From contig CP136066.1 in NCBI GenBank assembly GCA_032622095.1, positions 10,997,784-11,061,783 of the forward strand: a stretch of DNA of 64,000 nt, read 5' to 3'. The stretch comes from Siphonodentalium dalli (lineage: Eukaryota; Mollusca; Scaphopoda; Gadilida; Siphonodentaliidae). A program made the translations under genes and the position numbers. Positions 26,973 through 55,552 of the stretch are shown piece after piece; within the stretch, counting starts at the first letter, position 1; the number at the start of each line of letters is the position of its first letter. The notes beneath the pieces were generated by a model that did no database searches, was not told the DNA's origin, and worked only from the letters and a program-made list of their open reading frames with translations.

Positions 26973-27968
26973 TTACCTCTTTCCGACATGAACACGCCCA
27001 CTGACCGCTGTCTGTGTCTCTGCTGACGTCATCGCTGGGTTACTCATAGGGTCCGTTCCTGTTGAAACAGCTTCTGTCATGGATGGATCCCGCGTCCAGT
27101 AATCCACCAACTGGTACACGGACCCGTCTGGACTTACTATGGTCTCAACTTTCTTGACACCAAGATAACCGTCTGGTATGAACTTCCGTTTATAATTGTC
27201 GGCGTGCTCCATCGCAGAGCGTCTCCCTGCTCTCATCAGCTGCGCTCTATGTCCTTCCATGTACTCCGATGGAGCTCCAAGAAAGAAATATCTGGGATCC
27301 GCAGCCATCTGTCTGGCATTCGTGGTCGGGCCTAGATGCACCTCAACGGAACTGGAAGCAGGAGAGGTTGTTACCCCTTTCTCCTCTGTGACTATTTTTG
27401 TCTGCACCTCTTTGTCACATTTTGCAAAGTAAGTTTGGCAGCCTTCGCTTACGGTTGACCTTGGTGACTTTAAAGCTTCTTTGAAAGAAATCCGCCGCTT
27501 CGGCTCTACCATATAGCTGTTTGGGACGTACTCTTCCTCTGTCGCCATACCGGCTTCCACAGTCTTCGTTGTCTCGGTCTGCGTGCCTTGTTCCGCAACT
27601 TCTGTTACAATTGCTGCTGGCAACTGACTCGGCACATGTATGATCTCCACTGTCAGTGGCATCTCGGGAACGAAATCCGGAAAATCCATCGGAGGATCCA
27701 GAAATATGGGCTCTGGTAATTCCCACGCCGATGCCGGGAGGTTGAAAACATCAGCAAACAAATCTGGGTCATTATCCTTATTGATACTCCATGGATCTGA
27801 TATTGGTTCGTCCCTATGGAATATTGGCGCTTGAATGGATTCAGGTGAGTCTTGGACTATCGTTCTTTTCTTGCTGTCTTGCTTCTGCTTCGGACTACTT
27901 TCTCGGACCGTCTGCTTTTGATTCCGACTTTGATCTCTCCTCCTGTCATATAGTTCAGCGTCTGTATG
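26973..27968 (-). pseudogene. Retrotransposon ORF3, 3' portion (interrupted)
   Basis: This is the downstream part of a third ORF cut by the palindromic element at 27968/27969. Counting the CATACA duplication once, the frame joins that of 45728-45904 without shift, giving 388 codons. This part starts with a basic, Gln/Lys/Ser-rich stretch. It continues through Pro/acidic sequence (residues around FLDPPMDFPDFVPEMP), repeated QTE/CQTYFAKCDKEVQT motifs, and a conserved-looking end with ADPRYFFLGAPSEYMEGHRA and KFIPDGYLGVKKVETI. No transmembrane segment is present, so it is not an envelope. Its role is unknown. TTG at 27761 is not a real start. Confidence 0.7.
27963..27968. other. Target-site duplication TGTATG, left
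   Basis: TGTATG adjoins the first base of the palindromic element. The identical hexamer follows its last base at 45728-45733. Confidence 0.92.
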
Positions 27969-28419
27969 TGCTGCATAGACGCCTCTTGTAGGGGTAAAGG
28001 TACATTATAGAAGTACATTGGAAGTATGGGTACATATTCTACTGCCCTATTGTCTTCCGACATCAAAGGAGATCAAAGGAAAGTACCCCGCCCCCGCACC
28101 GTATGACGTAACGACGTTGTATGTAAACAAAGAAGATCAAAGTACCACCGCCCCCGCACCGTATGACGTGGCGACGTGTGGGTGTTTGAGTATACGCGTG
28201 TGGGTATTTGTATACGTCACGGTTGTGGGGGGTCCTTCTGTATATGGATGTGTACTTCGTGGGTGTGGCTATTTGAGAATGGTCGTATACGCTTTCGGGC
28301 CCTTGAGAAAGGTACAATGGGCAATCGTATACTTCCGTCATCGAAGTACGTCGTGTATACTGTTCATCAGGTACGAAGTATATTTGAGAACGAAGGTGTA
28401 ATGAGTCATTACAATCTAA

Positions 28420-28690
28420 CGCAATCCCTTACTTCCGGCGCAACGCCTGAGTCATTGGAATCTGATGCAATACTTCCGGATGAACCCTACCGGCTGACTC
28501 CACGCTTATTGGCCCAGCAGTTCTGGAACCTTCTCCGATATCTCCAATATTCTGGACCCTATTAAAAATCCCTTCATAATTGTAAAGGCATAGTACGTGA
28601 TCCCTTTAAGTTTCATACCTGTGTCGTATGTGGTTCCTTTAATTTGATACCTGTAATCGAATTCTCAGGAATAAATCAGACTGTATACCA
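28420..28690. repeat. Diverged direct repeat in the arm, copy A (mirror 45006-45276)
   Basis: The segment with CGCAACGCCTGAGTCATTGGA, CCCTTCATAATTGTAAAGGCA and CCTTTAAG recurs diverged at 30290-30675, which has GCAACACCTGAGTCATTGGA and CCTTCATAATTTCATAATGG. Both contain an AP-1-like TGAGTCA. It is an internal duplication of a noncoding, possibly regulatory, block. Confidence 0.6.
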
Positions 28691-29229
28691 GGGGTAAAAC
28701 ACATGTCAATATCCAATAAATTAAATCACAGCGATATGTTTCCGTACACAACACAACAGACAGACAGATTCTCGAAGCTTCGTAATTAAACACACGTTTA
28801 AGTCATTAACTGCCACGATACAGATCAACATGTCTGTTATTGAAAAATGCATGTTCCTAACGGCTTCTGTGCAAGGGGTTTGTGAATAGAGTGGGGGGGG
28901 GGGGGGATGAGTGTATGAGACCATCACTTCATAGATTTTCCTGGCAATCCAACTTAAAGCATTTATGAAGTATGTAGGGACACCGATCATTATACATTTT
29001 CACAAACAGATACACACTAATCGGTTCAGACTGGCGGTACACTATTCTCTTGAATTCCACATCTGTTAATAATATTTATTAAAATATATCTCTTCTGGTG
29101 CTCTATATGCTTTCTTTAATCGTTCTGCCTTACAAATCTTTACATATTACGTATCATTACGTATCAACTCAACTCAATTATGGAATACTTCTCACAACTA
29201 CCCCCTCTCCCAGCATCTCATCCCCTTTA

Positions 29230-29240
29230 TCTCTCTCTTC

Positions 29241-29279
<39 letters not shown>

Positions 29280-29305
29280 ATCTCTATGTCTCTCTCTCTC
29301 TGGTG
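29230..29305. repeat. (TC)n microsatellite in the arm (mirror 44391-44466)
   Basis: Two CT runs are interrupted by GTCATCTCTATG. The SLSLSL-type frames across it are artefacts. Confidence 0.93.
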
Positions 29306-29465
29306 TATCCCTGTAAACAAATTCTCAGAAATCATTTAGCGCATCGACCATATATATATTTCAAAATATCTAATAATACATATGCAGATTACCTCTAGGA
29401 AACAAGAATTTTCTAGAATGTGAAAAAACAATAACAGAGGGTATCTCCTATAATATAATATTCTC

Positions 29466-29726
29466 AAAGTCGTCACGTGACCTGACAGTTGGGCAGTAAA
29501 CTCATTAGAATCGACAACGCACTGTCTGTTTATCAAAAGCACTTGTATCACATGCTCTGCCAATGCATTTGGAATGTTCGCCATATAAGCTTCAGTTTGA
29601 ATCGCTCAAGTCCATGGTCCCATAACATGTTCTCATTTGAAGACATTTGAAGAGCGTCTGGTTTAATCTCATGGTAAAGTATTGCACAATCATTCACAGA
29701 ATAGATTAATGGAATCATTCTGCAAT
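29466..29726 (-). other. Possible decayed coding segment in the arm (mirror 43970-44230)
   Basis: Taken on the right arm, ATG 43978 opens 56 codons (MIPLIYSVNDCAILYHEIKP at the start) to TGA 44146. An overlapping frame from 44112 then continues with NALAEHVIQVLLINRQCVV. Peptide composition looks protein-like across the frame change, but I recognise no family. It may be a frameshifted gene remnant or chance. Confidence 0.25.
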
Positions 29727-30740
29727 TTTCGAAGCTTCACATTCTCCAGCCATTGCTCTGCTGTTTGAATCCACATTATTAAAAAGATTAACATCTCTCG
29801 CCCGATGCGCTATAACCTTCATCACAAACACATGTCATTAAGTGTGCTGACAGAGGCAACAAAGCTAAGGTCTCGTCTTTCTCGCAATATATTAAACCCT
29901 CGAGTTATCTACCTTCTTGAATATTCCCCTTTAGTAAAGTAAATGATCTGTATACAGGTAATATTACTTTCATGGTCGTATGTAACCAAACGAGGCCCCT
30001 CTCATACTCTAGCAAACATAAAAGAGTAGCGGAAGAAAGAGAGAGGGGCAGAGAGAGAGAGAGAGCCAGGCGTAGAGGTGTGTTGTTTTATGGCTATATA
30101 TTTCATGCACATAGATCACATACAGTAATGCCCTAATTAATCGACCCCTTATCCACAACAGAATTATTGGTATTTTCAGGATTTAGTCGGAAATATGGCT
30201 TGCTGTCATTAATCGGAAAGCTCTCACGGGGTTATGTGTGTTTCATAACCTTGGAGACGTTCGTATCGATGTTTGGTGCTGCTAGTAAATAACCAATACT
30301 TACTTCAGGTGCAACACCTGAGTCATTGGAATTTCAATGCAATCTTTGTGTGAACCCTAACGACTCACTCCCCGCTCATTGGACACATGTAATCTTCAAC
30401 CACGCAATTTTTCTGGAACATTCTACATGTGGAAATTCCACAACATTCTATTTGACTAGTATTGAAAATTCCTTCATAATTTCATAATGGCATCGTATAT
30501 GGTCCGTTTAAAATACCTGTATGTGGCCCCTTTAAGCTATGTATCCCGACTAATGGTACACTGTTATTTCAATGGCAAACTTGATTAAATCATCTCTAAC
30601 ATTCGTTATACTTTTTCTCTAACTACCACTTTACAATATGGTGTATATAATCGAACTATCAGGAATCAATCAACGCCTTACCCATAGATATTTGAACATA
30701 CAACTGAACGCATTTAGGGTCACATACATTAAATGTGTTT

Positions 30741-30863
30741 TGGAAGGGTCAAATCGTGACCCGACATGACGTTCACCTTTAAAATGGTAAATTCAAGGTT
30801 AAATCGCGCAATTCTCCGAAAATCAGAGGGAAACATCCCGGACGAAGTAGGGTCCACCAGCTA
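30741..30863 (+). mobile_element. Decayed Helitron 3' end in the arm (mirror 42833-42955)
   Basis: Sequence from GGGTCAAATCGTGACCCGAC to CCCGGACGAAGTAGGGTCC and ACCAGCTAC matches the 3' part of the Helitron at 8903-9592, with a mutated CTAG end. The arm therefore captured a Helitron before or after it became palindromic. Confidence 0.7.
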
Positions 30864-31079
30864 CTATTATATATTTCTAGATTTAGTTACAAACTAAATA
30901 CCTGTATATTGTACAAAGAAATGTTTGACAAATATATCTGTATCAATATTACCATACGGGTCATTAAAATAGATATGACGAAACAAATTTTGAAGGGTGC
31001 ATGTATCAGGTAAATTTTTATATTTCAAATGATGACAGGAATGCGGAAAGTTGAAGTACCTACGTAATACTGGCTATCC

Positions 31080-31960
31080 GAATGAAGAGATATACATGTA
31101 TATAAAAACCAAAATAGAAGATGACTGCTGGCGACAATGTTTTCCAAAAAATTTCAAAGCATTCGATAGCTCCCATCTAGTTGTCAGCCCGAAGATCAAT
31201 ATAAAGTGTGGTGACTATCAGATGAGGGATATGTCTGTACAGTTGCTAAACAATTCAGTCATGCAAAAGAGGATCAAACAGTAAGATACCAAATTGCTGC
31301 CTGTGGTAATGTTTTTTAACGAAATTCGGGAAAATTAGATTACTCTCACCCTGGTTATCCAGAAGATCGTTGTGGAATCTGGTGACGATCGGACAGGGGG
31401 TGTCGTCTGTAGGATCAACCAAATTATTTAGCCATAAAATAGTAAAATTCAAGATCACCGCTGGCAGTGATGTCGCAAATCTATGTTAAACGACAGTAGC
31501 ATTATAACAGAGTGGTCACTTACCTTCAAGTAAAAAAAAGTACCATTATGTTCTCATTTTCTATCTTATCATTATGAAATTTGTCACGTGCGTGCCAGAC
31601 GTCACTTAGAGGTCAGCACCATATTTTGGTTCGAATATTTTTCAATAACATGGCTGCCAGACTATTTCGAATTTTAGATATTTAAAATAAAATGTCAGGC
31701 TTAATTCAGGCCGAACCACGGGTTCTCGGTTGAGAAACTTGGCCTCCAGTTGTCATCTTTTATTTAAGTCATAAATGCACTTCGAATTTTAAAGTGTCAT
31801 AGTGGGCTCATGTTTCCACCAATCATTATGCAATTTGGCGAGTACGTGCCCGACGTCACTCAGATGTTATCACAAGATTTTAGTTCGAATCATACGAAAA
31901 ACATGGCCGCTATTTTGTTTTTAAGTGATAAAACTACAGAACGAGGTGCAGAGTTTGGTC
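31080..31960. repeat. Dispersed repeat family in the arm (mirror 41736-42616)
   Basis: Motifs such as CATCTGATAGTCACCACAC, CAACTAGATGGGAGC and GCCAGCAGTCATCTT (read on the right arm) match the repeat at 5515-5965. A second block around 41770-42120 has GGCACGTACTCGCCAAATTG and GGCACGCACGTGACAAATTT as diverged units. Noncoding. Confidence 0.6.
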
Positions 31961-32151
31961 GTGTCGTGGTATTTCTCAAGTCATTCTCATTCTGTAGTGT
32001 TATTACAAAAATCACAAGATAATCGAAGAAGGTCATGCCAGAGAATAATTTCGACATGGTTTTCTACACGTGGGTCGGCTTTTCCATAGCAGTAAAACTG
32101 AACGCATCTTTTAATAATTTACACATTTTATTATTTATCAAACACAATCCA

Positions 32152-32157
32152 TTTATT
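32152..32157 (-). terminator. AATAAA poly(A) signal of the left PC4-like gene
   Basis: AATAAA lies 22 bp after the stop codon. The right-arm twin is at 41539-41544. Such a short 3' UTR is typical of compact, intronless genes. Confidence 0.75.
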
Positions 32158-32178
32158 ACATTACATAATAATTACAGT

Positions 32179-32700
32179 TTAAAACGAATCAGGTGTATAT
32201 GTTTTGCATAATTCCGGTGAACAGAAACTACACATTAAAAAGCCAAGCTGATTTTTTTTATGATCCTCTTGCATGTAGCAGGGTACTAAAGTTTGTAGTT
32301 CCGGTACAGCCACAGTGACGTCATTAATGGTGGACATCAACTGTTCAAATTCTGAGTGGTTGAGAGTTACACCTGTCTTCGTAGGGCAAAGTCTCTCACT
32401 GTCTTTCGGGTAAAAGAATTTTCGGATATGTACAACACGGTGTTCATGATCATAAGTCACGTGTTCATTATGTCCGATATGTATCCTTTCCAAAGAAGAT
32501 CTGCTTTGTAAATGTTCATACACTTTCTGTGCGTTATCAGCTAATTCCAGCCACTGTTGTAATCGCAGGCAGTCGCCGAATTTAGTAGGGAACTTCCCAT
32601 CGTTCCATATTCTGATGTCTATATTTTTGATGCTTTTATATTCACCGACGGTAAGGTATCTATCCCGTCCTAAGTGTTTTGTGAAAATTTTAGAATTCAT
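32179..32700 (-). CDS. PC4-like (transcriptional coactivator p15 type) protein, left arm
   Basis: Intact 173-codon, intronless ORF identical to 40996-41517. Residues about 10-60 (GRDRYLTVGEYKSIKNIDIR... then a Trp-containing helix) follow the PC4 pattern of a beta-sheet ending in DIR followed by a W-L helix. Residues about 75-125 (IGHNEHVTYD...VHIRKFFY...CPTKTGVTLN) repeat the pattern. The protein would thus carry two PC4-like halves, where the known domain forms a ssDNA-binding dimer. The C terminus has CSFCSPELC. Family membership is inferred from pattern. A role in transcription or ssDNA binding is an inference. Confidence 0.6.
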   Translation of the reverse strand: MNSKIFTKHLGRDRYLTVGEYKSIKNIDIRIWNDGKFPTKFGDCLRLQQWLELADNAQKVYEHLQSRSSLERIHIGHNEHVTYDHEHRVVHIRKFFYPKDSERLCPTKTGVTLNHSEFEQLMSTINDVTVAVPELQTLVPCYMQEDHKKNQLGFLMCSFCSPELCKTYTPDSF

Positions 32701-32722
32701 GGTGTCGTTTCGATGAACGCTG

Positions 32723-32778
32723 AACTGAAAATGTCGGAGGCGCGTGGATGTATTACGTTTATACCCTATATGACGTCA
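32723..32778 (-). promoter_or_regulatory. Compact promoter of the left PC4-like gene
   Basis: On the minus strand, TGACGTCA (CRE) is followed by TATAAA and, about 35 bp later, TTCAGTTC, an initiator-like CAGT. The ATG lies 23 bp further on. It is the mirror of 40918-40973. Confidence 0.55.
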
Positions 32779-33026
32779 TTGGGCGGTCCCATCACAACCG
32801 TTTCAAAGTATATAATCAATCAGATTGCCCCCCGGAATCGTATTAGTCAAATATGGAAGGGCCAATCATGTTTCGATCAGAGGGAACTCTCAGACAGTGG
32901 CTCGGAAGTACATTAGCTAAATACAGAATAAAGGGGTTTCGTGGTAAACTGTCTCGGCCTATAGGAAAGGGCCGGAAATGACACGCAACCGTGATTCAGG
33001 GTATTCATAACGCAGGTATGAATCAT

Positions 33027-33752
33027 TTAACCAAAAGTTTTGGCATAGGCACGCACTACGCTTCTGCACAAGGGACAAGTCTCAGAACCGAGCGCGCACA
33101 TGCCACACATTGCTACGTGTCCACATGGTAAAAGCACACAGTTTTTATTCTTCTCTAGACAAATGATACATTTGCATTCTTCAGAATCGTCTACTGCCGT
33201 ATCAGGCCAGTCATCTTCATAGGAACCAGACAGTCTCTCATCGTTTATTTCAGTCATTTCTTCGAAATTAACGGTAAGGTCATCTACTGAAAATGTATTC
33301 ATGTCTTGAACAGAGGCACTATCCACGGGACGTTGCAATGAAACATTTGCTGGTACATCGGGGATTTCCATTAAATATCTCGGTCTGTTCCACTGTTTAT
33401 ACCTATCTTCAGGCAGGAAACGTTGCAAATAATTGAGATAGCTACAATTTGGAAAGAAACGGTAATGTTCAGTTCGAGGATCATCTCTCTTTTCCCATTG
33501 CCACAACCTACATCCGCAACTATAACATATGGTTTTATCAGCGGTCTTTGTGAAAAAGAAACCAGCTCCAGCTATTTTAGCAGCCTCCACGGGCGAGGTC
33601 CAGTTTACGAAAGAAGCTAATCTCGAGTGAAAATTTCGATACTCTGGGTATGACGGTTTTCAAGCCACAGTAAGACCATACACGTTTAAAAGTTCTGGTA
33701 TCGTGCTTACACTATTATCGCTCGAATCAGCGGCGTGCGGCGGGATATCCAT
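33027..33752 (-). pseudogene. BIR-RING (IAP-like) reading frame with in-frame TGA, left arm
   Basis: This is the mirror of 39944-40669, with identical sequence including the TGA (33660-33662). See the right-arm copy for domains. IAP-like BIR-RING proteins bind caspases or signalling partners and act as E3 ligases. Whether this copy is expressed is unknown. Confidence 0.7.
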
Positions 33753-34636
33753 CACCTGTTATTTCTCCCCCACCCTGACAATCAGTATGAACCTGTAAAT
33801 GTTAGTTCAAGCCTTATAACAATGGTAATATATAGAAACACGTTCATTGGTTGCTGTATTAACATTATTATTATTGTTTATATAGATGTACTTATTTTTC
33901 TTTTTACAGATGGAAAATTTCCAGGCTGAACAATTTCATCGCAATGCGTGGATTCGAAAGTAGTGACCTTATGAGGGGAATTAATGCGAGAAGACAACGA
34001 ATGACTCATTAAATAGGTCACTATACAACAGACTGGTTGAGTTGGAACCATAATTCCCAATTTACAAAACCCTCTGTTTATTCGAGGAAATCCGCTAACT
34101 GACAGGTCCTTGGACACGAGTTTCACGTCATGATGCAAAATCACGCAATCTGTGGCCCTAAATTTGCACGTACCTAGTGAGCATTTGATATCTAATAGCG
34201 ATCAATGAAGTATTTAGTTCTTATCATAATATTTATAACAGCCAATCAAAATCCGTTGATGGATTTAACTATATAATACAAGGACAAACGGAATGAAAAC
34301 ATCTGTGCACCAACTTTATGTATTCCAGCCATAGTTCATTCATATTATTACTCTAAAATCTCCATTACATGGCAAAACCAAAGGACCCATTTGATGTAGA
34401 CTAGTATATAAATACTTACTTCATGTATTCTTTTCATCAATGATATGTATTGTAACACCTATAAATATAGTCTGTTATACAGAGGAAACATTACCCACAG
34501 CCTCATGCCACAAAAGGCCTACTATGTGAACACATGTGTATATTAATTCCATATTTTCTTGTCAAAACGCTCTATTATATAACGATGTATTCGTTAATCG
34601 TTCCTTTATCTTTATTGTTGTTAATTTATAGCATTG

Positions 34637-34873
34637 TTAGTAGAAATTTAATCTAAACTCGATAATATATTGAAAATAATTCGTCAATACTGCTTTATTG
34701 GTGGTAACTGAACTTATTACATCATGTATGCAACTAAAACAAGCGAGACAACTCATAAATTTGTAATAGTTCTCATGTCTATGGCGGTTCACACAGTGTA
34801 CATTTTCATTACCATTTAATGCGCACATTACTGATTTATGCATATGAACGCGTTTCCATGTTTCTTGAAGCAA
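34637..34873 (-). other. Unassigned ORF in the arm (mirror 38823-39059)
   Basis: A frame of about 90 codons without an internal ATG start near its beginning. It contains CLACFSCIHD and a His/Asn-rich stretch. No family is recognised. It may be noncoding. Confidence 0.2.
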
Positions 34874-36349
34874 ATCCGTTACATATAAATACGTTATGAC
34901 GTAGATTAAGTGTCATTTTCACTGTTAAATCACGTACAATATTAGCAAACGTGGTATTTCACACAAAACTATATCGAAACGGCCATTTATCAAACGAAAT
35001 GACATGTCTGTGATCAAACGTGCTAATCAGGCCTGTGTTTTCGCCAACAAGGGAGTTTGATTTCGGTTGTATATGATGGTTCAGTCATTATATGATACCT
35101 AATCGGTTGCACATGGTGCTGTCTAGGGTATATACTGTGCATGTATATTAAATGCTCCATTGATGTTAGGAGTGTTTCTTAATTATGCACTCTCTTTACT
35201 ATGACTCAATTTTATTGTGTACATATCATAACTGGCATTATATGTATTTTTTATCATTTAATGTAATAATTATTTTAAAAATACCGTGTATATCACAATA
35301 CTTTACTATAGCCGATGTGTGTCTAGAAGCTTATTCATGCTATCATCACATACACTTGAATTAGATACTAACTATCGAGTTATGATTTTCCCTGTATTTT
35401 CATGCAATATTCGTGAATGGCAACAATCAGCAGTTCTTTTCTGATGAATGTCAAACGAGATTTCTCACCCCAATGCCCCCCTCTAACTGACATTTCGATA
35501 ACCTTTATTGAATCTTAAACACTGTAATTTCTCTAATTTCTCCACGTTACTTCTCCTATACACGTAGTTCGATCAGCTGTCAATGTCATGTCTGGTGTTG
35601 CTGTTGTGTTCTTAATGGACCATCTGCTAACTAACGATGCGTGTCAGGTATGCATACTATTTGTTTTAATATGCCTGGTATACATGTATTCTCAGACACT
35701 CACTCTCAGATGTATCTCTTCGGTAAAACACATAGATATGATATAGCTGTGCAGTAAGGTTCGTCCATGACATTACTTCATTCCGACATTCTGATACATA
35801 GACCAATCACATAAAAGTAAAGAATGTACTCCCAATACGTTAGGCATATCTTTTAATCTGAGTGATGTCACCACAAAACGCGAGGTTCAAAAACTTCAAA
35901 AATAGTTAAAAGTACACATTTTTTTATTTCGAATATCATTATTTATGGTCAATTTCGTGTTATGAAATGGGCCATTTTACAAACGCGTAATATGTGATTA
36001 AAAAAACGGCTATTTGATAAAAAATTTAAACGCTATTATCACTATATTTGGAATATAAAAAACGTTGTATTTGACGAAGTATGACAATGCAAAATGACTA
36101 CTTTTATAAACGCGAATTTGAAAACACTAATATCGGAACGAATTTTAAACTAATTTCGTGTTATGAAATGACTCATTTTATAATCGCGGTCTAGTCAAAC
36201 GGGGAAACTAGTATGTATGTGTAAGTCGACTTAACGCGGACCTCGTTAAACCCCACCCCTAAACACCTCCCCCTGTCCGGATGAAACCCTGACCAAAAAA
36301 AGGGGGATGGGGGAGGGGGGCGCGCCGTTTTTTATGACAAAAAAATATG

Positions 36350-37346
36350 CCAGATATTTTTCATGCAACCCGTTTCATACCAAATCGTTCACCATATTGT
36401 TGTAATTGTTGTTGCTGTGGTTGCTTTTTGATGCTGTTGTTGATGTTAGTTTGGTTGTTGTCGTTGTTTTTCTTATTTTAGTTGCTGTAATGGCAGCGGC
36501 ACAATTTGGAACATACATTTACACACTAGCAACTTGAGGAGGTGGACTACCTTATATCAAAGGTTAAGATGAGTTATACACTAATACTTTGGAACATTGT
36601 ACTAAAACATTAGGTTTGAGAAGGTGTGTTTATATTCCTGGAAAGAGTCAGAGAAGTATTACTGGACTTGTCCAAACATGTCACATATAAGTGTTTGCCA
36701 TTGGTTAATATTAAGATATATAAATGAGGTGCATTTGACATCACAGTCACTGGGGTAAAGGAAAGGGGCTATCGACCATCCCGGGGGTAGCCACCCCCAC
36801 ACCCCAAATCACATACTCCCCATCACTTGCTGAGAAACCATTGCGAAGCATGGAGCTATATCACCAGAAGATTGTGAAACCAATGTATGGCCAACAGAGA
36901 TACCTAACAGTTACTGAAGAAAAGGGTGAAAATAAACATATGGCAATTATAAGATGGTATTTTGCCAATTAAATATGGAATTTATATGGACAAGGATCTA
37001 TGGTACAATATGTCTTCATATGGTGATGACATCAAAAAAGCGATATTAGAGAAACGTTCTGTGAAATAGCATATTGGGAGTGACTGGTTTCTGTGCTACT
37101 GTAATAAATATTGGACAATACGAATAGGAAAATTCTATAAACATAAGGAGTATCAAGAATCGTACTTCAAGTGTACAAAATGTTGCGGTTCTATGGCTGA
37201 ATAAATATATAGCTATAATTCAATACCTTAGTCAGTTTTACATCCATAGTTATGGTTCCAATATCATCCTGGGTATAGGCAAATATACCATATTTACCAT
37301 TTTTCATACATATTGTATACAATATTATATTTAGTCACCCTTACAT
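36350..37346. other. Unique loop between the palindrome arms
   Basis: 997 bp with no inverted counterpart. The left third is TTG/GTT-rich without an ORF (36395-36490). The centre and right hold the decayed PC4-like frame described separately. Confidence 0.85.
36850..37204 (+). pseudogene. Decayed PC4-like gene in the loop
   Basis: ATG 36850 opens 40 codons with GQQRYLTVTEEKGENKHMAI, stopping at TAA 36970. The +1 frame then gives ILPIKYGIYMDKDLW, a PC4-type PxKxGI-helix segment. It runs to TAG 37067 and continues to TAA 37202 with HIGSDWFL, IRIGKFYKHKE and a CTKC motif. The order of motifs parallels the two halves of the intact arm gene (RYLTV; then HIG...IRKFFYPK). It is a diverged, frameshifted relative. 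AATAAA overlaps the final stop (37200-37205). Confidence 0.6.
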
Positions 37347-39551
37347 CATATTTTTTTGTCATAAAAAACGGCGCGCCCCCCTCCCCCATCCCCCTTTTTT
37401 TGGTCAGGGTTTCATCCGGACAGGGGGAGGTGTTTAGGGGTGGGGTTTAACGAGGTCCGCGTTAAGTCGACTTACACATACATACTAGTTTCCCCGTTTG
37501 ACTAGACCGCGATTATAAAATGAGTCATTTCATAACACGAAATTAGTTTAAAATTCGTTCCGATATTAGTGTTTTCAAATTCGCGTTTATAAAAGTAGTC
37601 ATTTTGCATTGTCATACTTCGTCAAATACAACGTTTTTTATATTCCAAATATAGTGATAATAGCGTTTAAATTTTTTATCAAATAGCCGTTTTTTTAATC
37701 ACATATTACGCGTTTGTAAAATGGCCCATTTCATAACACGAAATTGACCATAAATAATGATATTCGAAATAAAAAAATGTGTACTTTTAACTATTTTTTA
37801 AGTTTTTGAACCTCGCGTTTTGTGGTGACATCACTCAGATTAAAAGATATGCCTAACGTATTGGGAGTACATTCTTTACTTTTATGTGATTGGTCTATGT
37901 ATCAGAATGTCGGAATGAAGTAATGTCATGGACGAACCTTACTGCACAGCTATATCATATCTATGTGTTTTACCGAAGAGATACATCTGAGAGTGAGTGT
38001 CTGAGAATACATGTATACCAGGCATATTAAAACAAATAGTATGCATACCTGACACGCATCGTTAGTTAGCAGATGGTCCATTAAGAACACAACAGCAACA
38101 CCAGACATGACATTGACAGCTGATCGAACTACGTGTATAGGAGAAGTAACGTGGAGAAATTAGAGAAATTACAGTGTTTAAGATTCAATAAAGGTTATCG
38201 AAATGTCAGTTAGAGGGGGGCATTGGGGTGAGAAATCTCGTTTGACATTCATCAGAAAAGAACTGCTGATTGTTGCCATTCACGAATATTGCATGAAAAT
38301 ACAGGGAAAATCATAACTCGATAGTTAGTATCTAATTCAAGTGTATGTGATGATAGCATGAATAAGCTTCTAGACACACATCGGCTATAGTAAAGTATTG
38401 TGATATACACGGTATTTTTAAAATAATTATTACATTAAATGATAAAAAATACATATAATGCCAGTTATGATATGTACACAATAAAATTGAGTCATAGTAA
38501 AGAGAGTGCATAATTAAGAAACACTCCTAACATCAATGGAGCATTTAATATACATGCACAGTATATACCCTAGACAGCACCATGTGCAACCGATTAGGTA
38601 TCATATAATGACTGAACCATCATATACAACCGAAATCAAACTCCCTTGTTGGCGAAAACACAGGCCTGATTAGCACGTTTGATCACAGACATGTCATTTC
38701 GTTTGATAAATGGCCGTTTCGATATAGTTTTGTGTGAAATACCACGTTTGCTAATATTGTACGTGATTTAACAGTGAAAATGACACTTAATCTACGTCAT
38801 AACGTATTTATATGTAACGGATTTGCTTCAAGAAACATGGAAACGCGTTCATATGCATAAATCAGTAATGTGCGCATTAAATGGTAATGAAAATGTACAC
38901 TGTGTGAACCGCCATAGACATGAGAACTATTACAAATTTATGAGTTGTCTCGCTTGTTTTAGTTGCATACATGATGTAATAAGTTCAGTTACCACCAATA
39001 AAGCAGTATTGACGAATTATTTTCAATATATTATCGAGTTTAGATTAAATTTCTACTAACAATGCTATAAATTAACAACAATAAAGATAAAGGAACGATT
39101 AACGAATACATCGTTATATAATAGAGCGTTTTGACAAGAAAATATGGAATTAATATACACATGTGTTCACATAGTAGGCCTTTTGTGGCATGAGGCTGTG
39201 GGTAATGTTTCCTCTGTATAACAGACTATATTTATAGGTGTTACAATACATATCATTGATGAAAAGAATACATGAAGTAAGTATTTATATACTAGTCTAC
39301 ATCAAATGGGTCCTTTGGTTTTGCCATGTAATGGAGATTTTAGAGTAATAATATGAATGAACTATGGCTGGAATACATAAAGTTGGTGCACAGATGTTTT
39401 CATTCCGTTTGTCCTTGTATTATATAGTTAAATCCATCAACGGATTTTGATTGGCTGTTATAAATATTATGATAAGAACTAAATACTTCATTGATCGCTA
39501 TTAGATATCAAATGCTCACTAGGTACGTGCAAATTTAGGGCCACAGATTGC

Positions 39552-39818
39552 GTGATTTTGCATCATGACGTGAAACTCGTGTCCAAGGACCTGTCAGTTA
39601 GCGGATTTCCTCGAATAAACAGAGGGTTTTGTAAATTGGGAATTATGGTTCCAACTCAACCAGTCTGTTGTATAGTGACCTATTTAATGAGTCATTCGTT
39701 GTCTTCTCGCATTAATTCCCCTCATAAGGTCACTACTTTCGAATCCACGCATTGCGATGAAATTGTTCAGCCTGGAAATTTTCCATCTGTAAAAAGAAAA
39801 ATAAGTACATCTATATAA
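39552..39818 (+). other. Unassigned ORF upstream of the BIR frame (mirror 33878-34144)
   Basis: Open frame lacking a good ATG at its start (GTG 39552), with KDLSVSGFPRINRGFCKLG. A weak donor-like GTAAAAAG lies at 39787. It could be a 5' exon of the BIR-RING unit or chance. I recognise no domain. Confidence 0.2.
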
Positions 39819-39943
39819 ACAATAATAATAATGTTAATACAGCAACCAATGAACGTGTTTCTATATATTACCATTGTTATAAGGCTTGAACTAACATTTA
39901 CAGGTTCATACTGATTGTCAGGGTGGGGGAGAAATAACAGGTG

Positions 39944-40669
39944 ATGGATATCCCGCCGCACGCCGCTGATTCGAGCGATAATAGTGTAAGCACGATACCA
40001 GAACTTTTAAACGTGTATGGTCTTACTGTGGCTTGAAAACCGTCATACCCAGAGTATCGAAATTTTCACTCGAGATTAGCTTCTTTCGTAAACTGGACCT
40101 CGCCCGTGGAGGCTGCTAAAATAGCTGGAGCTGGTTTCTTTTTCACAAAGACCGCTGATAAAACCATATGTTATAGTTGCGGATGTAGGTTGTGGCAATG
40201 GGAAAAGAGAGATGATCCTCGAACTGAACATTACCGTTTCTTTCCAAATTGTAGCTATCTCAATTATTTGCAACGTTTCCTGCCTGAAGATAGGTATAAA
40301 CAGTGGAACAGACCGAGATATTTAATGGAAATCCCCGATGTACCAGCAAATGTTTCATTGCAACGTCCCGTGGATAGTGCCTCTGTTCAAGACATGAATA
40401 CATTTTCAGTAGATGACCTTACCGTTAATTTCGAAGAAATGACTGAAATAAACGATGAGAGACTGTCTGGTTCCTATGAAGATGACTGGCCTGATACGGC
40501 AGTAGACGATTCTGAAGAATGCAAATGTATCATTTGTCTAGAGAAGAATAAAAACTGTGTGCTTTTACCATGTGGACACGTAGCAATGTGTGGCATGTGC
40601 GCGCTCGGTTCTGAGACTTGTCCCTTGTGCAGAAGCGTAGTGCGTGCCTATGCCAAAACTTTTGGTTAA
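39944..40669 (+). pseudogene. BIR-RING (IAP-like) reading frame with in-frame TGA, right arm
   Basis: ATG 39944 to TAA 40667 is one frame of 241 codons, broken only by TGA at codon 31 (40034-40036). After the TGA comes PSYPEYRNFH, then RLASFVNW, the standard start of a BIR domain. Zinc ligands follow as Cys76, Cys79, His96 and Cys103 (C-x2-C-x16-H-x6-C). A linker then leads to a C-terminal C3HC4 RING: Cys195, Cys198, Cys210, His212, Cys216, Cys219, Cys226 and Cys229 (CIIC, CGH, CPLC). The layout is that of short IAPs, common in bivalves and in several invertebrate DNA viruses. The TGA falls in the BIR N-terminal extension, so it is a nonsense mutation, readthrough, or a sign that the true start is downstream. 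A 67-nt intron that would remove it breaks the frame. Confidence 0.72.
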
Positions 40670-40917
40670 ATGATTCATACCTGCGTTATGAATACCCTGA
40701 ATCACGGTTGCGTGTCATTTCCGGCCCTTTCCTATAGGCCGAGACAGTTTACCACGAAACCCCTTTATTCTGTATTTAGCTAATGTACTTCCGAGCCACT
40801 GTCTGAGAGTTCCCTCTGATCGAAACATGATTGGCCCTTCCATATTTGACTAATACGATTCCGGGGGGCAATCTGATTGATTATATACTTTGAAACGGTT
40901 GTGATGGGACCGCCCAA

Positions 40918-40973
40918 TGACGTCATATAGGGTATAAACGTAATACATCCACGCGCCTCCGACATTTTCAGTT
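40918..40973 (+). promoter_or_regulatory. Compact promoter of the right PC4-like gene
   Basis: TGACGTCA (40918-40925), TATAAA (40933-40938) and a CAGT initiator-like TTCAGTTC (about 40967-40974) lie in order, with ATG at 40996. TATA plus CAGT about 30 bp apart is a common invertebrate and viral RNA polymerase II arrangement. Confidence 0.55.
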
Positions 40974-40995
40974 CAGCGTTCATCGAAACGACACC

Positions 40996-41517
40996 ATGAA
41001 TTCTAAAATTTTCACAAAACACTTAGGACGGGATAGATACCTTACCGTCGGTGAATATAAAAGCATCAAAAATATAGACATCAGAATATGGAACGATGGG
41101 AAGTTCCCTACTAAATTCGGCGACTGCCTGCGATTACAACAGTGGCTGGAATTAGCTGATAACGCACAGAAAGTGTATGAACATTTACAAAGCAGATCTT
41201 CTTTGGAAAGGATACATATCGGACATAATGAACACGTGACTTATGATCATGAACACCGTGTTGTACATATCCGAAAATTCTTTTACCCGAAAGACAGTGA
41301 GAGACTTTGCCCTACGAAGACAGGTGTAACTCTCAACCACTCAGAATTTGAACAGTTGATGTCCACCATTAATGACGTCACTGTGGCTGTACCGGAACTA
41401 CAAACTTTAGTACCCTGCTACATGCAAGAGGATCATAAAAAAAATCAGCTTGGCTTTTTAATGTGTAGTTTCTGTTCACCGGAATTATGCAAAACATATA
41501 CACCTGATTCGTTTTAA
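40996..41517 (+). CDS. PC4-like (transcriptional coactivator p15 type) protein, right arm
   Basis: Intact 173-codon intronless ORF, identical to the left-arm copy, with its own TATA/CRE promoter upstream and AATAAA 22 bp after the stop. Two PC4-like halves are visible, with TVGEYKSIKNIDIR and HIRKFFYPKDSERLCPTKTG as diagnostic stretches. The BIR-RING frame ends 326 bp upstream on the same strand. Retention of two intact copies, when the loop copy is decayed, suggests recent duplication or conversion of the arms. The ssDNA-binding role is family knowledge, not shown here. Confidence 0.6.
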   Translation: MNSKIFTKHLGRDRYLTVGEYKSIKNIDIRIWNDGKFPTKFGDCLRLQQWLELADNAQKVYEHLQSRSSLERIHIGHNEHVTYDHEHRVVHIRKFFYPKDSERLCPTKTGVTLNHSEFEQLMSTINDVTVAVPELQTLVPCYMQEDHKKNQLGFLMCSFCSPELCKTYTPDSF

Positions 41518-41538
41518 ACTGTAATTATTATGTAATGT

Positions 41539-41544
41539 AATAAA
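41539..41544 (+). terminator. AATAAA poly(A) signal of the right PC4-like gene
   Basis: AATAAA lies 22 bp after TAA 41515-41517. A second AATAAA-like motif follows about 25 bp later. Confidence 0.75.
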
Positions 41545-44416
41545 TGGATTGTGTTTGATAAATAATAAAATGTGTAAATTATTAAAAGATGCGTTCAGTT
41601 TTACTGCTATGGAAAAGCCGACCCACGTGTAGAAAACCATGTCGAAATTATTCTCTGGCATGACCTTCTTCGATTATCTTGTGATTTTTGTAATAACACT
41701 ACAGAATGAGAATGACTTGAGAAATACCACGACACGACCAAACTCTGCACCTCGTTCTGTAGTTTTATCACTTAAAAACAAAATAGCGGCCATGTTTTTC
41801 GTATGATTCGAACTAAAATCTTGTGATAACATCTGAGTGACGTCGGGCACGTACTCGCCAAATTGCATAATGATTGGTGGAAACATGAGCCCACTATGAC
41901 ACTTTAAAATTCGAAGTGCATTTATGACTTAAATAAAAGATGACAACTGGAGGCCAAGTTTCTCAACCGAGAACCCGTGGTTCGGCCTGAATTAAGCCTG
42001 ACATTTTATTTTAAATATCTAAAATTCGAAATAGTCTGGCAGCCATGTTATTGAAAAATATTCGAACCAAAATATGGTGCTGACCTCTAAGTGACGTCTG
42101 GCACGCACGTGACAAATTTCATAATGATAAGATAGAAAATGAGAACATAATGGTACTTTTTTTTACTTGAAGGTAAGTGACCACTCTGTTATAATGCTAC
42201 TGTCGTTTAACATAGATTTGCGACATCACTGCCAGCGGTGATCTTGAATTTTACTATTTTATGGCTAAATAATTTGGTTGATCCTACAGACGACACCCCC
42301 TGTCCGATCGTCACCAGATTCCACAACGATCTTCTGGATAACCAGGGTGAGAGTAATCTAATTTTCCCGAATTTCGTTAAAAAACATTACCACAGGCAGC
42401 AATTTGGTATCTTACTGTTTGATCCTCTTTTGCATGACTGAATTGTTTAGCAACTGTACAGACATATCCCTCATCTGATAGTCACCACACTTTATATTGA
42501 TCTTCGGGCTGACAACTAGATGGGAGCTATCGAATGCTTTGAAATTTTTTGGAAAACATTGTCGCCAGCAGTCATCTTCTATTTTGGTTTTTATATACAT
42601 GTATATCTCTTCATTCGGATAGCCAGTATTACGTAGGTACTTCAACTTTCCGCATTCCTGTCATCATTTGAAATATAAAAATTTACCTGATACATGCACC
42701 CTTCAAAATTTGTTTCGTCATATCTATTTTAATGACCCGTATGGTAATATTGATACAGATATATTTGTCAAACATTTCTTTGTACAATATACAGGTATTT
42801 AGTTTGTAACTAAATCTAGAAATATATAATAGTAGCTGGTGGACCCTACTTCGTCCGGGATGTTTCCCTCTGATTTTCGGAGAATTGCGCGATTTAACCT
42901 TGAATTTACCATTTTAAAGGTGAACGTCATGTCGGGTCACGATTTGACCCTTCCAAAACACATTTAATGTATGTGACCCTAAATGCGTTCAGTTGTATGT
43001 TCAAATATCTATGGGTAAGGCGTTGATTGATTCCTGATAGTTCGATTATATACACCATATTGTAAAGTGGTAGTTAGAGAAAAAGTATAACGAATGTTAG
43101 AGATGATTTAATCAAGTTTGCCATTGAAATAACAGTGTACCATTAGTCGGGATACATAGCTTAAAGGGGCCACATACAGGTATTTTAAACGGACCATATA
43201 CGATGCCATTATGAAATTATGAAGGAATTTTCAATACTAGTCAAATAGAATGTTGTGGAATTTCCACATGTAGAATGTTCCAGAAAAATTGCGTGGTTGA
43301 AGATTACATGTGTCCAATGAGCGGGGAGTGAGTCGTTAGGGTTCACACAAAGATTGCATTGAAATTCCAATGACTCAGGTGTTGCACCTGAAGTAAGTAT
43401 TGGTTATTTACTAGCAGCACCAAACATCGATACGAACGTCTCCAAGGTTATGAAACACACATAACCCCGTGAGAGCTTTCCGATTAATGACAGCAAGCCA
43501 TATTTCCGACTAAATCCTGAAAATACCAATAATTCTGTTGTGGATAAGGGGTCGATTAATTAGGGCATTACTGTATGTGATCTATGTGCATGAAATATAT
43601 AGCCATAAAACAACACACCTCTACGCCTGGCTCTCTCTCTCTCTCTGCCCCTCTCTCTTTCTTCCGCTACTCTTTTATGTTTGCTAGAGTATGAGAGGGG
43701 CCTCGTTTGGTTACATACGACCATGAAAGTAATATTACCTGTATACAGATCATTTACTTTACTAAAGGGGAATATTCAAGAAGGTAGATAACTCGAGGGT
43801 TTAATATATTGCGAGAAAGACGAGACCTTAGCTTTGTTGCCTCTGTCAGCACACTTAATGACATGTGTTTGTGATGAAGGTTATAGCGCATCGGGCGAGA
43901 GATGTTAATCTTTTTAATAATGTGGATTCAAACAGCAGAGCAATGGCTGGAGAATGTGAAGCTTCGAAAATTGCAGAATGATTCCATTAATCTATTCTGT
44001 GAATGATTGTGCAATACTTTACCATGAGATTAAACCAGACGCTCTTCAAATGTCTTCAAATGAGAACATGTTATGGGACCATGGACTTGAGCGATTCAAA
44101 CTGAAGCTTATATGGCGAACATTCCAAATGCATTGGCAGAGCATGTGATACAAGTGCTTTTGATAAACAGACAGTGCGTTGTCGATTCTAATGAGTTTAC
44201 TGCCCAACTGTCAGGTCACGTGACGACTTTGAGAATATTATATTATAGGAGATACCCTCTGTTATTGTTTTTTCACATTCTAGAAAATTCTTGTTTCCTA
44301 GAGGTAATCTGCATATGTATTATTAGATATTTTGAAATATATATATGGTCGATGCGCTAAATGATTTCTGAGAATTTGTTTACAGGGATACACCAGAGAG
44401 AGAGAGACATAGAGAT

Positions 44417-44455
<39 letters not shown>

Positions 44456-45727
44456 GAAGAGAGAGATAAAGGGGATGAGATGCTGGGAGAGGGGGTAGTT
44501 GTGAGAAGTATTCCATAATTGAGTTGAGTTGATACGTAATGATACGTAATATGTAAAGATTTGTAAGGCAGAACGATTAAAGAAAGCATATAGAGCACCA
44601 GAAGAGATATATTTTAATAAATATTATTAACAGATGTGGAATTCAAGAGAATAGTGTACCGCCAGTCTGAACCGATTAGTGTGTATCTGTTTGTGAAAAT
44701 GTATAATGATCGGTGTCCCTACATACTTCATAAATGCTTTAAGTTGGATTGCCAGGAAAATCTATGAAGTGATGGTCTCATACACTCATCCCCCCCCCCC
44801 CCCACTCTATTCACAAACCCCTTGCACAGAAGCCGTTAGGAACATGCATTTTTCAATAACAGACATGTTGATCTGTATCGTGGCAGTTAATGACTTAAAC
44901 GTGTGTTTAATTACGAAGCTTCGAGAATCTGTCTGTCTGTTGTGTTGTGTACGGAAACATATCGCTGTGATTTAATTTATTGGATATTGACATGTGTTTT
45001 ACCCCTGGTATACAGTCTGATTTATTCCTGAGAATTCGATTACAGGTATCAAATTAAAGGAACCACATACGACACAGGTATGAAACTTAAAGGGATCACG
45101 TACTATGCCTTTACAATTATGAAGGGATTTTTAATAGGGTCCAGAATATTGGAGATATCGGAGAAGGTTCCAGAACTGCTGGGCCAATAAGCGTGGAGTC
45201 AGCCGGTAGGGTTCATCCGGAAGTATTGCATCAGATTCCAATGACTCAGGCGTTGCGCCGGAAGTAAGGGATTGCGTTAGATTGTAATGACTCATTACAC
45301 CTTCGTTCTCAAATATACTTCGTACCTGATGAACAGTATACACGACGTACTTCGATGACGGAAGTATACGATTGCCCATTGTACCTTTCTCAAGGGCCCG
45401 AAAGCGTATACGACCATTCTCAAATAGCCACACCCACGAAGTACACATCCATATACAGAAGGACCCCCCACAACCGTGACGTATACAAATACCCACACGC
45501 GTATACTCAAACACCCACACGTCGCCACGTCATACGGTGCGGGGGCGGTGGTACTTTGATCTTCTTTGTTTACATACAACGTCGTTACGTCATACGGTGC
45601 GGGGGCGGGGTACTTTCCTTTGATCTCCTTTGATGTCGGAAGACAATAGGGCAGTAGAATATGTACCCATACTTCCAATGTACTTCTATAATGTACCTTT
45701 ACCCCTACAAGAGGCGTCTATGCAGCA

Positions 45728-45733
45728 TGTATG
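45728..45733. other. Target-site duplication TGTATG, right
   Basis: Identical to 27963-27968. It codes for His-Thr in ORF3 on the minus strand. Confidence 0.92.
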
Positions 45734-45996: not shown

Positions 45997-48900
45997 CTAA
46001 GTATCTTGGCTTCGTGTCTTGACTTTCTCCCCACACACAAACCATCTTTTCGCTCGCCCCAGATACGGCTTGACCCTGCTTATGTGTATAACCTTTGAAG
46101 GGTGTCGTGGACCTAACTTTATTCTGAGTAACACCTCTGTCAACTTATCTATGACTGTATATGGCCCGGTATGCTTTTGAGCTAACTTCCTCGATAAACC
46201 TTTCCCTACTTGAGTTGATCGCAACCAAACTACATCGCCGATGTTGAATTTCACTTTTCGGGCACGCAGATCATAGTTCCGCTTTTGGCGGTCACTCGCT
46301 TTCTTGGCGTGTTTCCGTGATTTTTCATGTACCAGCTCAAAACGCCTTGTCAGGTCCTCAATGTATTGTGGAATTACGTTTTCTTTGCCTGTCTGTTTTT
46401 CTGAGGTTACTCTCGAATAGAGTAAGTCAACTGGCAAATTCATTTCTCGTCCGAGCATCATTAAACTCGGGGTGAAACCCGTGCTATCATGTACCGATGA
46501 GCGATATGCGAGCATCATCAGTGGGAGATATTCATCCCAGTCTTTCTGAGATTTGCACAAATACTTGCTGAGCATGGTCTTCAACGTCCTGTTCATTCTC
46601 TCTACCATGCCATCACTTTGAGGGTGGTAAGGTGTCGTTCTGGTCTTGTCAATGTTAAATATTTCACAGATCATTTGAAATAGTTTACTTTCAAACTGAC
46701 GTCCCTGATCTGTGTGTATTTGTAATGGGATACCCCATCTTGTGAAATATTCTCGAACCAATATGTCAACGATTGTCAGAGCTTCCTGGTCAGGCATAGC
46801 GAATGCTTCTGCCCACTTTGTAAAATAGTCTTGCACAACTAAGATATACTTGTTCCCCTTGTGGGACTTGGGTAATGGACCAGTTATGTCGATGGCGACT
46901 CTCTCCAGTGGTGCTCCAACAAGGTATTGTTTCATTTCGCCCTGCACATGTGAGGAACCTTTCTGCCTTTGGCACTCCTTGCATTTCTGGACAAACAAAT
47001 GAGCTGTATTGTAATATCCAGTCCAATAAAATCTACATCTCAATTGACTTATAAGACGATTAATGCCGAGGTGACCCCCCTCCGGGTCTGAGTGGAGCAT
47101 TTTCAGGACTTCGCTATGCCAACAACTTGGAAGGACAAGTTGCCATACTTCTACATCTCTTTCTTCGTCAATCCATTTTCTATGGAGTATCCCATCTTTC
47201 AAAGACAACCTGTCCCACTGGGCCCAGTATGTTTTCACTTTACTTGACAGCTGGGAGACATGTTCCCATCGTGGTTTCTCTGAATTTTGTTCAAACCATT
47301 CAATTATTTGCCCAATTTCCTTGTCATCTCTCTGTGCTTTCATCACTTCCTCGCGGGATTTGGGTATCAGCCATGACTTATGGTTTTCCTGTGTCAGATT
47401 CCCTCCTTGGTTAACCGGATCAGACCTGTTTGACCTTGTCACTCGTGCCACTTTCTCCACATTCCCCTCTCCACATTGACATTCGTTCTCTAGTTCAAGC
47501 TTTTCTTGTTGCCTTAAACAGTATTTACAGTCCTCGCATGGCCTGCGCGACAGACCATCGGCATTGGTGTGCAATTTACCTGGTCGGTGCTGTATCTTAA
47601 AGTTATACATATCCAGCACTTGTATCCACCGAGCCAATTGACCTTCCTGGTTCTTAAATCTTCGCAACCAACTTAATGCACCATGATCACTGCGGACCAG
47701 GAACTCTGTGTTGAAAAGGTAGGTGTGGAAATTCTTGACGCTGTCCACAACAGCCAGCAGTTCTTTTCTGGTTACACAGTAATTTCTTTCAGCTTTTGAA
47801 AGTGTGCGGCTAAAATAAGCGACTGGGTGTTCGCCATCCTCTACTATTTGCGACAAAACTCCACCAATACTGTTGTGGCTGGCATCAGTGTCCAGAATGT
47901 ATGGCTTCGAGAAGTCCGGATACTGCAAAACAGGCCTGGTCATCAATGCATGTTTGAGCTGCATAAAGGAGTCGTCACATTCTTGACTCCACACAAATTT
48001 TATACCTTTCTCTGTCAGCTTGTTTAGTGGCTTGGCTATCTGCGCAAAGTTTTTGATGAATTTCCTGTAGTAGGAGCAGGTTCCAAGGAAACTTCTAACA
48101 TCCTTTATATTCCTTGGCTGCTTCCATGTCTCGATTGCTTCTATTTTAGCAGGGTCTGGCTCGATCCCTTCCTTTGACACTACATGGCCCAGAAACGTGC
48201 ATTTTTCTTTGAATAGTTGGCACTTTTTAGGGGACACCTTGAGACCAGCATTTCCAATCCGCCTCAGCACCTCATCCAGACGCTCGCAATGTTCTCTGAA
48301 GGTCGCAGAGTAGACTAAAACGTCATCGATATAAAGGACACATGTATGCCATTGGAGTCCTGCCAGAACAGTTTCCATAAGCCTCTGAAACGTGGCCCCA
48401 GCATTGCAGAGACCAAAAGGCATAACACGGAAATGATACTGCGAGTTCGAAGTAATGTTTGAGGTGACGAATGCTGTCTTAAGTTTGTCTTCTTCGGTCA
48501 AAGGAATCTGCCAGTACCCAGCTACCAAATCGATTCCGGAGAAGAACTGTGATCCTTTAAGTACCTCTAAGCTCTCATCAATCCGAGGGAGTGGGTATGA
48601 GTCCTTCACAGTGATCTCATTAACCTTCCGGAAATCAATGCAGAAGCGAATGCCTGTTTTCTTGGTGTCATCGGGACTTTGACGCTTCTTAACCAGAACG
48701 ACTGGGCCCGCCCAACTAGACTTTGATGGTTCGATAACACCTGCTTTCAGCATCCTCTGCACTTCCTCCTCCCCCTGACCTCTGATTGCATATGGCACCC
48801 TACGTGGAGCTTGCTTGATAGGCTGGTGTTGTCCTGTATCGATGTTATGCTCCACTAAATGCGTTCGCCCGATATCTTCTTTGTTCTTTGAGAAGACTGA

Positions 48901-55420: not shown

Positions 55421-55552
55421 TTTCGTTGACGCAATAGAGATCCCGTGCAGGCGGAAGTACCGGTTCGGCAAACTTGACGATGGAGGCTGGGAGGTTTGTG
55501 CAGAGGACAAGTATGCAATCGCGAAGAATAACTGCATCGTTTATTCATTCGG
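55421..55552 (+). CDS. METTL24/FkbM-like methyltransferase, exon 3
   Basis: A 132-nt exon with acceptor CTTATTTCAG and donor TCATTCGG then GTGAGTTA. Its first T completes the phase-2 codon from exon 2, and it ends in phase 2. It encodes FVDAIEIPCRRKYRFGKLDD, then GGWEVC, and ends CIVYSFG. DGGWxxC followed by (C)IVYSFG is the entry to the SAM-binding domain of METTL24-like (Methyltransf_21/FkbM) proteins as I remember them. The catalytic remainder lies past the window. With the exon 1 signal anchor the product would be a secretory-pathway enzyme. The substrate is unknown. Its junction with intron 3 seeds the array that follows. Confidence 0.7.

Follow-up and report, generated by a model that had tools for sequence, protein, structure and literature searches.

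Mavericks (also called Polintons) are regarded as virus-like and are thought to replicate by protein priming, and to our knowledge none of their replication intermediates has been seen so far. Palindromic defective genomes exist among the adenoviruses, and Foldback elements (FB, Galileo) are non-autonomous and have very long inverted repeats. Intact vertebrate Mavericks are described as 12.7-24.6 kb long, with inverted repeats of 46-1,447 bp, 6-bp target site duplications (TSDs) and an end motif of (AG)3 or (AGT)2 (PMC8097293), and snap-back genomes as a known form of the defective particles of adeno-associated virus (AAV) (PMC8235507). Ginger1 and Ginger2 have 4- to 5-bp TSDs, TGTNR ends and terminal inverted repeats (TIRs) of 40-270 bp (PMC2836005), and Teratorn is a herpesvirus-piggyBac element of 41-182 kb with a piggyBac-like transposase and 18-bp TIRs (PMC6431247). 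Here we describe a palindromic mobile element of 17.8 kb at positions 27969-45727 of a 64-kb stretch of contig C6 of the scaphopod Siphonodentalium dalli (the window, that is, the whole stretch analysed; the genome is 2.23 Gb in nine contigs) and ask how it compares with these systems. A literature search of titles and abstract openings, with subscription journals mostly outside its coverage, found no palindromic Maverick family among the entries listed.

A first-pass annotation, made from the letters of the window, had proposed a palindrome with arms of 8,381 bp, a 997-bp loop and an exact TGTATG duplication, and our repeat search and script bore this out in every number. The left arm (27969-36349, plus strand) starts with TGCTGCATAG, the loop follows at 36350-37346 (plus strand), and the right arm (37347-45727, minus strand), the mirror of the left, ends with CTATGCAGCA; the two TSD copies, read from the flanks by script, lie at 27963-27968 and 45728-45733. 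The arms mismatch at a single position, 35897 (C versus A), and the outermost 7,928 nt are complementary without exception. An inverted repeat of 8.4 kb and of such identity cannot have arisen by chance. The element splits an open reading frame (ORF) on the minus strand, whose portion left of the element occupies 26973-27968. When the flanks were rejoined minus one TSD copy, this long ORF stayed open through the junction, as the annotation had reported. Because one of the two other frames was likewise open there, the restored frame counts for less than the TSD as evidence.

We searched the genome with the outer 500 bp of the element and obtained matches of 95-100% identity; the best 40 of 499 candidates, paired by eye, gave 16 inverted pairs (the window's included), each about 17.3-18.5 kb across, and 8 single ends. 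Fifteen copies were compared, namely the window copy and 14 of the 15 other paired loci (C4:223642850 was left out). A palindrome of 17.7-18.5 kb recurred at all 14 further loci examined. The element ends TGCTGCATA...TATGCAGCA were common to all 15 copies, with variation at the tenth terminal base in two of them (C4d and C7), and the arm/loop junctions lay at identical positions in 15 of 15. TSDs of the 14 other copies were taken directly from the flanking letters. An exact 6-bp TSD was present in 14 of the 15 copies (13 of the 14 other loci), every one different: besides TGTATG in the window, they were GATAAC, CACCCG, TATATA, CCTGAT, AACTGT, GCATAA, TAACAT, CTGATG, CAATGC, ACAGAC, GACGGG, GAAAGC and ATTGGC. 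Copy C8b had no TSD in its flanks. Copies combining other boundaries with a missing TSD, the outcome that the first-pass annotation had named as refuting its proposal, did not turn up. No strong preference for a target emerged from the 14 TSDs, the largest bias being an A at position 2 (8 of 14). The palindrome is therefore, as the first-pass annotation had supposed, a mobile element, and it belongs to a multi-copy family with fixed ends and 6-bp TSDs.

Long perfect palindromes can come from library artefacts, and a hairpin read chimera carried into the assembly would produce a structure of this kind. We rejected this explanation and give it practically no weight: the loci have distinct flanks, with an exact TSD at 14 of 15, their boundaries and junctions are identical, and their arms carry arm-specific differences. 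As a warning, long perfect palindromes in assemblies may be real mobile elements.

The family was also counted with a protein that each arm encodes, a double PC4-domain protein described below. A genome search with this protein (best 150 of 724 candidates) gave 92 matches at 92-100% identity. For pairing, with a limit of 12 kb, we took in 102 matches, these 92 and 10 at about 50-52% identity, and left out the other 48 of the 150 (three fragments at 80-90%, three at 49-51% and 42 at 46-49%). Seventy-eight of the 92 close matches formed 39 divergent (inverted) pairs within 12 kb and 14 were unpaired. The pairs were distributed over all nine contigs, and their spacing was 8,745-8,899 bp in 27, 9,081-9,385 bp in 10, and 7,858 and 4,466 bp in one each. 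Family counts from these genome searches are lower bounds. At C3:53710008-53758299, six PC4 copies lie within 50 kb at a spacing of 9.3-9.6 kb, two on the minus strand and then four on the plus strand; this cluster is either a local array or a set of nested palindromes. Another class of PC4 protein (173 aa, 48% identical) forms inverted pairs at C1:26579474/26580856 (1.4 kb) and C5:262277854/262281883 (4 kb), which are possibly other snap-back derivatives, from a different element family.

The arms of one copy were much closer to each other than copies were among themselves. Within copies, 0-37 substitutions separated the two arms along some 8.4 kb (median 0.024%, 15 copies), and between copies the median difference was 0.74% (range 0.08-6.9%, 105 pairs), or 0.62% (0.08-1.7%, 91 pairs) without copy C4c. 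When the 30 arms were placed in a tree, left and right were sisters in 13 of the 15 copies, and the arms therefore seem to have been re-templated around each insertion. We also counted gapless columns with at least two alleles, each found on both arms of some copy; there were 662 such concerted columns, and 230 without C4c. In C4c (C4:31152930-31170708), a block of about 1 kb, equivalent to 30469-31469 of the window, has given way to sequence that is either unrelated or strongly diverged; the replaced block is present in both arms, and these arms differ by one substitution, which suggests an exchange of the block followed by rewriting of the arms. The simplest account of these data is that both arms derived from one arm at insertion, as do the long terminal repeats (LTRs) of retroelements, with ordinary mutation and some exchange between copies later.

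Near-identical arm pairs at 15 different sites could also be explained if the palindrome had formed once and its arms had been kept identical by continuous gene conversion after insertion, as in sex-chromosome palindromes; palindromes are known to undergo conversion. Several results speak against such continuous conversion. Within-copy differences are mostly scattered (C8b has one cluster in addition), and at least 10 scattered, unconverted differences persist in each of C4d, C6b, C7 and C8b. Copy C2 (C2:207435201-207445000) retains, in one arm only, an insertion of 878 bp together with a duplication of 8 bp, CTGCCTGT, and that arm is otherwise identical; the insertion is probably a later, unrelated transposon. 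Among the 68 within-copy differences counted, the 40 with an allele private to that copy outnumber the 28 whose two alleles both occur in other copies (chiefly in C6b). Given these results, we think it unlikely that continuous conversion is what keeps the arms alike.

Each arm carries two recognisable genes. The first is the frame of the double PC4-domain protein (32179-32775, minus strand; Pfam PC4, E 9.2e-13, two stretches), with its reflection at 40921-41517 on the plus strand, where the listed ORF is 40996-41517. The second is a 210-aa frame for a protein with a BIR and a RING domain, like the inhibitor of apoptosis proteins (IAPs), at 33027-33659 on the minus strand and, mirrored, at 40037-40669 on the plus strand (listed ORF 40106-40669); it was recognised from matches to Pfam and to cellular IAP structures. 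The BIR-RING frame is open in 28 and the PC4 frame in 27 of the 30 arms, and the ratios of nonsynonymous to synonymous change are 1.04 (10 changes) and 0.83 (13 changes), respectively. The first-pass annotation had called this cargo virus-like. That holds for the PC4 protein, a homologue of which adjoins a resident PolB gene (see below); the BIR-RING protein matched only Pfam domains and cellular IAP structures.

Pfam was scanned with 15 distinct ORFs of the element. They were drawn from 40 stop-to-stop ORFs of at least 60 aa around the left half, among which are frames of the flank as well as mirrored ones. Other than PC4 and BIR-RING, no family scored above the cut-off in these ORFs, and there were three weak matches (E 0.015-0.15). 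Thus, the scan, which is blind to multi-exon genes and to families lacking a model, found among them no protein-primed PolB, no retroviral-type integrase (rve), and no capsid, ATPase or protease. An ORF in the loop (36739-36972) had no Pfam match and is broken in many copies. Searches of a set of 5.8 billion proteins with the PC4 protein, the BIR-RING protein and a 164-aa stretch from a related locus (see below) returned nothing at E <= 0.001, scans of IMG/VR confirmed no relative of PC4 or of BIR-RING, and a search of phage records with BIR-RING gave no match. A single-sequence AlphaFold model of the PC4 protein was of low quality (mean pLDDT 37.8), and we made no use of it.

The genome contains many PolB genes, and a resident element with one of them links the palindrome to Mavericks. 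A genome search with PF03175 gave 149 matches from the best 69 of 1,596 candidates; among the matches listed, most lie in open frames of two size classes, about 952 aa (family A) and about 1,312-1,330 aa (family B). Adjoining one family-A PolB we found a double PC4 protein (Pfam E 4e-15), a TBP-like protein (E 4e-32) and a weak adenovirus-protease match slightly under the cut-off (20.0 versus 21.3 bits). The palindrome's PC4 protein is 34% identical to this family-A PC4 over 162 columns (E 2e-25, pairwise), the Cys-bearing tail included. A further ORF beside the family-A PolB, which resembles the terminal part of a Polinton capsid protein, matched nothing in Pfam, and its sole match, a weak one, was to a PHROG of unknown function (E 0.073); it has at least 150 copies in the genome at 98-100% identity (best 150 of 1,552 candidates). 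Next to a family-B PolB (frame of about 1,312 aa) lies an ORF for a putative packaging ATPase. With these copies of the capsid-like ORF and dozens of open PolB frames of about 952 aa, the Maverick-like elements are apparently a young burst. None of the 39 paired PC4 loci had a PF03175 match, as judged by eye, among the best 69 of the 1,596 candidates.

Loci that share only one end with the palindrome provide a candidate for a helper. At four of the eight single ends (C5:224713892, C2:215656822, C2:151402884 and C9:125020645), whose outer 500 bp are 97% identical, a PC4 homologue without a partner (51-52% identity) lies 4.8-5.2 kb from the end; in the window, PC4 is 4.2 kb from the end. The ten unpaired PC4 loci of 50-52% had no second close or 50-52% match within 40 kb among the 102 matches compared; a further 51% PC4 (C5:224734218), on the same strand as C5:224718658 and 15.6 kb off, lies outside that comparison. 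Probes at the mirror position (17.7 kb) found no arm at the four loci, a weak test in which six of the eight single ends failed, even C5:257943851, where the PC4 genes form a normal mirrored pair. At the C9 locus, a 701-base probe 8.5-9.2 kb inward from the end contained 164 aa matching the ORF upstream of PolB in family A (36% over 174 columns, E 3e-27). The matched family-A ORF stops 0.8 kb short of the first PF03175 match and is possibly part of the PolB gene itself; the match includes a nearly shared FFDFE stretch, which we take to be the exonuclease I motif of family-B polymerases. These loci are a hint of what the first-pass annotation had envisaged, copies with unique interiors that encode a protein-primed polymerase: the hint consists of the single divergent PC4 and, at one locus, the relative of the PolB-upstream ORF. 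With the same order of end and PC4, and at one of them a PolB-side gene near what is the centre of the palindrome, the end-sharing loci have the appearance to be expected of a parental Maverick.

Taken together, these data lead us to favour, with modest confidence, the reading that the palindrome is a non-autonomous snap-back satellite of the resident Maverick/Polinton-type elements, replicated and integrated in trans. We infer the identity of the helper, the replication and integration in trans, the hairpin intermediate and the roles of PC4 and BIR-RING. In the ancestor, a displaced single strand of a Maverick-type element would have folded back and been copied, so that one end (the terminus and the PC4 side) was doubled as a mirror image and the remainder was lost. 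The integrase and polymerase of the helper would then work on the terminal sequences common to palindrome and helper. During replication, the displaced strand may snap back into a stem of 8.4 kb with a loop of 1 kb, and copying or mismatch repair of this hairpin would derive both arms from one template, with a reset at each transposition as in LTRs; the near-identity of the arms in each copy would follow from this rewriting. For the cargo, possible roles are to keep host cells from dying while the element replicates (BIR-RING) and to act in single-strand DNA binding or transcriptional regulation (PC4). The broader proposal, that palindromic defective genomes of Maverick-type elements have become an independent transposon family of stable snap-back satellites, inherited with the chromosomes, whose arms are rewritten through a hairpin at each transposition and which carry an anti-apoptotic gene of their own, is more tentative, and we put it at slightly under an even chance. 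For the retroviral-type integrase that the first-pass annotation had proposed, the only grounds here are the TSD and the link to Mavericks; the scanned ORFs contained none that was recognised, and none was seen in the helper.

Several results weigh against the satellite reading and the re-templating of its arms. In the 30-arm tree, the two arms of C6b do not pair as sisters, nor do those of C8b; C4c alone supplies roughly two in three of the 662 concerted columns; and for 28 of the 68 differences within copies, both alleles also occur in other copies. In addition, C8b has the most diverged arms of all, and 21 of the 105 pairs of copies differ less than these two arms do, a sign of some exchange between copies. 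The few codon changes give no clear sign of purifying selection on PC4 or BIR-RING. As for the helper, the 164-aa stretch at the C9 locus received no Pfam name and no PF03175 match, and among the matches listed, none to PF03175 came closer than 60 kb, and no capsid-like one closer than 81 kb, to the ten unpaired PC4 loci; both sets of listed matches are dominated by near-identical members of other families. In the candidate helper, which was sampled by probes only, no mirror end, PolB core or integrase was seen, and the continuity of the shared end, the single PC4 and the C9 PolB-side stretch is one of coordinates only. When the window was compared at the DNA level with stretches next to two resident PolB genes, the element gave no match.

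A rival reading is that the palindrome is a large DNA transposon independent of Mavericks, that it encodes a transposase itself (for example, a spliced or unrecognised DDE enzyme) and that its likeness to Mavericks came from gene capture and recombination of ends. Large stretches of the arms are uncharacterised and introns could conceal a transposase gene, C4c shows that swapping of blocks is possible, the termini are unlike the published vertebrate Maverick ends, and no PF03175 or capsid-like match lies near the end-sharing loci among the matches listed. However, neither a transposase nor an integrase was found by Pfam in the 15 distinct ORFs, for which reason we rejected a self-encoded transposase, and the outer 500 bp is 97% common with single-PC4 loci, one of which has the relative of the PolB-upstream ORF. 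We therefore consider an independent transposon unlikely, if a shade less so than continuous conversion.

It is also conceivable that the satellite and its helper are parts of one divided, virus-like genome in mutual dependence, the palindrome giving PC4 and BIR-RING and the helper giving PolB, integrase and capsid. The palindrome does have its end in common with the candidate helper loci, and no BIR-RING homologue was found at the corresponding place in the one end-sharing relative probed. However, the end-sharing relatives have a PC4 homologue of their own, the family-A PolB element itself carries PC4 and TBP, and its capsid-like ORF, with at least 150 copies, outnumbers the palindromes found. 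A divided genome thus seems improbable, far more so than an independent transposon.

If the satellite reading is true, the re-templating of the arms is a natural record of the fold-back single-stranded intermediate that strand displacement predicts, and genomes can harbour defective-genome parasites of their own endogenous virus-like elements.

Other features of the window were as follows. A 20-bp direct repeat, GCCCCCGCACCGTATGACGT, lies just inside the end on the plus strand, at 28090 and 28150 (span 28090-28169), and is mirrored at the opposite end; it is a possible origin or promoter motif. The ORF split by the palindrome is the third, extra ORF of a Ty3/Gypsy-type retrotransposon and has no Pfam match of its own. 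This retrotransposon, at 45997-52319, has open pol (reverse transcriptase, RNase H and integrase) and gag-like ORFs of 1,242 and 828 aa, respectively, and the rve match within the window is part of it and not of the palindrome. A satellite array with a 32-bp unit (about 265 copies, 92% matches) fills 55528-64000. An Rfam search of the window gave zero matches.

Compared with Mavericks, adintoviruses included, the palindrome is alike in its inverted termini, its total size, which lies in the Maverick range, and its 6-bp TSD, which fits a Maverick integrase because vertebrate Mavericks also have 6-bp TSDs (PMC8097293). It is alike, too, in that a homologue of its PC4 adjoins a resident PolB and that its outer 500 bp is common to loci one of which bears a sequence related to the PolB-upstream ORF. 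It is unlike them in having no recognised polymerase, integrase or capsid gene in the scanned ORFs, in having repeats of 8.4 kb instead of the 46-1,447 bp given for vertebrate Mavericks, and in its ends, TGCTGCATAG and not the (AG)3 or (AGT)2 of vertebrate Mavericks, the last being a further point against the satellite reading. Because no polymerase, integrase or capsid gene was recognised in the scanned ORFs and the end motif differs, we do not class it as a Maverick; it probably behaves as a non-autonomous Maverick derivative. With the snap-back genomes of AAV and with defective adenovirus genomes it would share the mirror duplication of one end around a single loop, the loss of parental genes and replication in trans. 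Those are genomes of viral particles, whereas the palindrome is a chromosomal multi-copy family with TSDs and stable junctions. Foldback elements resemble it in their very long inverted repeats and lack of autonomy, but the arms of the palindrome are largely unique, gene-bearing sequence, and it has 6-bp TSDs and the Maverick link. Ginger1 and Ginger2 share its TG...CA ends and were excluded, given that its TSD is 6 bp and its ends are TGCTG, not the TGTNR of the published description. Teratorn is likewise a virus-derived mobile element with long inverted repeats, but it encodes a piggyBac-like transposase, spans 41-182 kb and has TIRs of 18 bp, unlike the palindrome.

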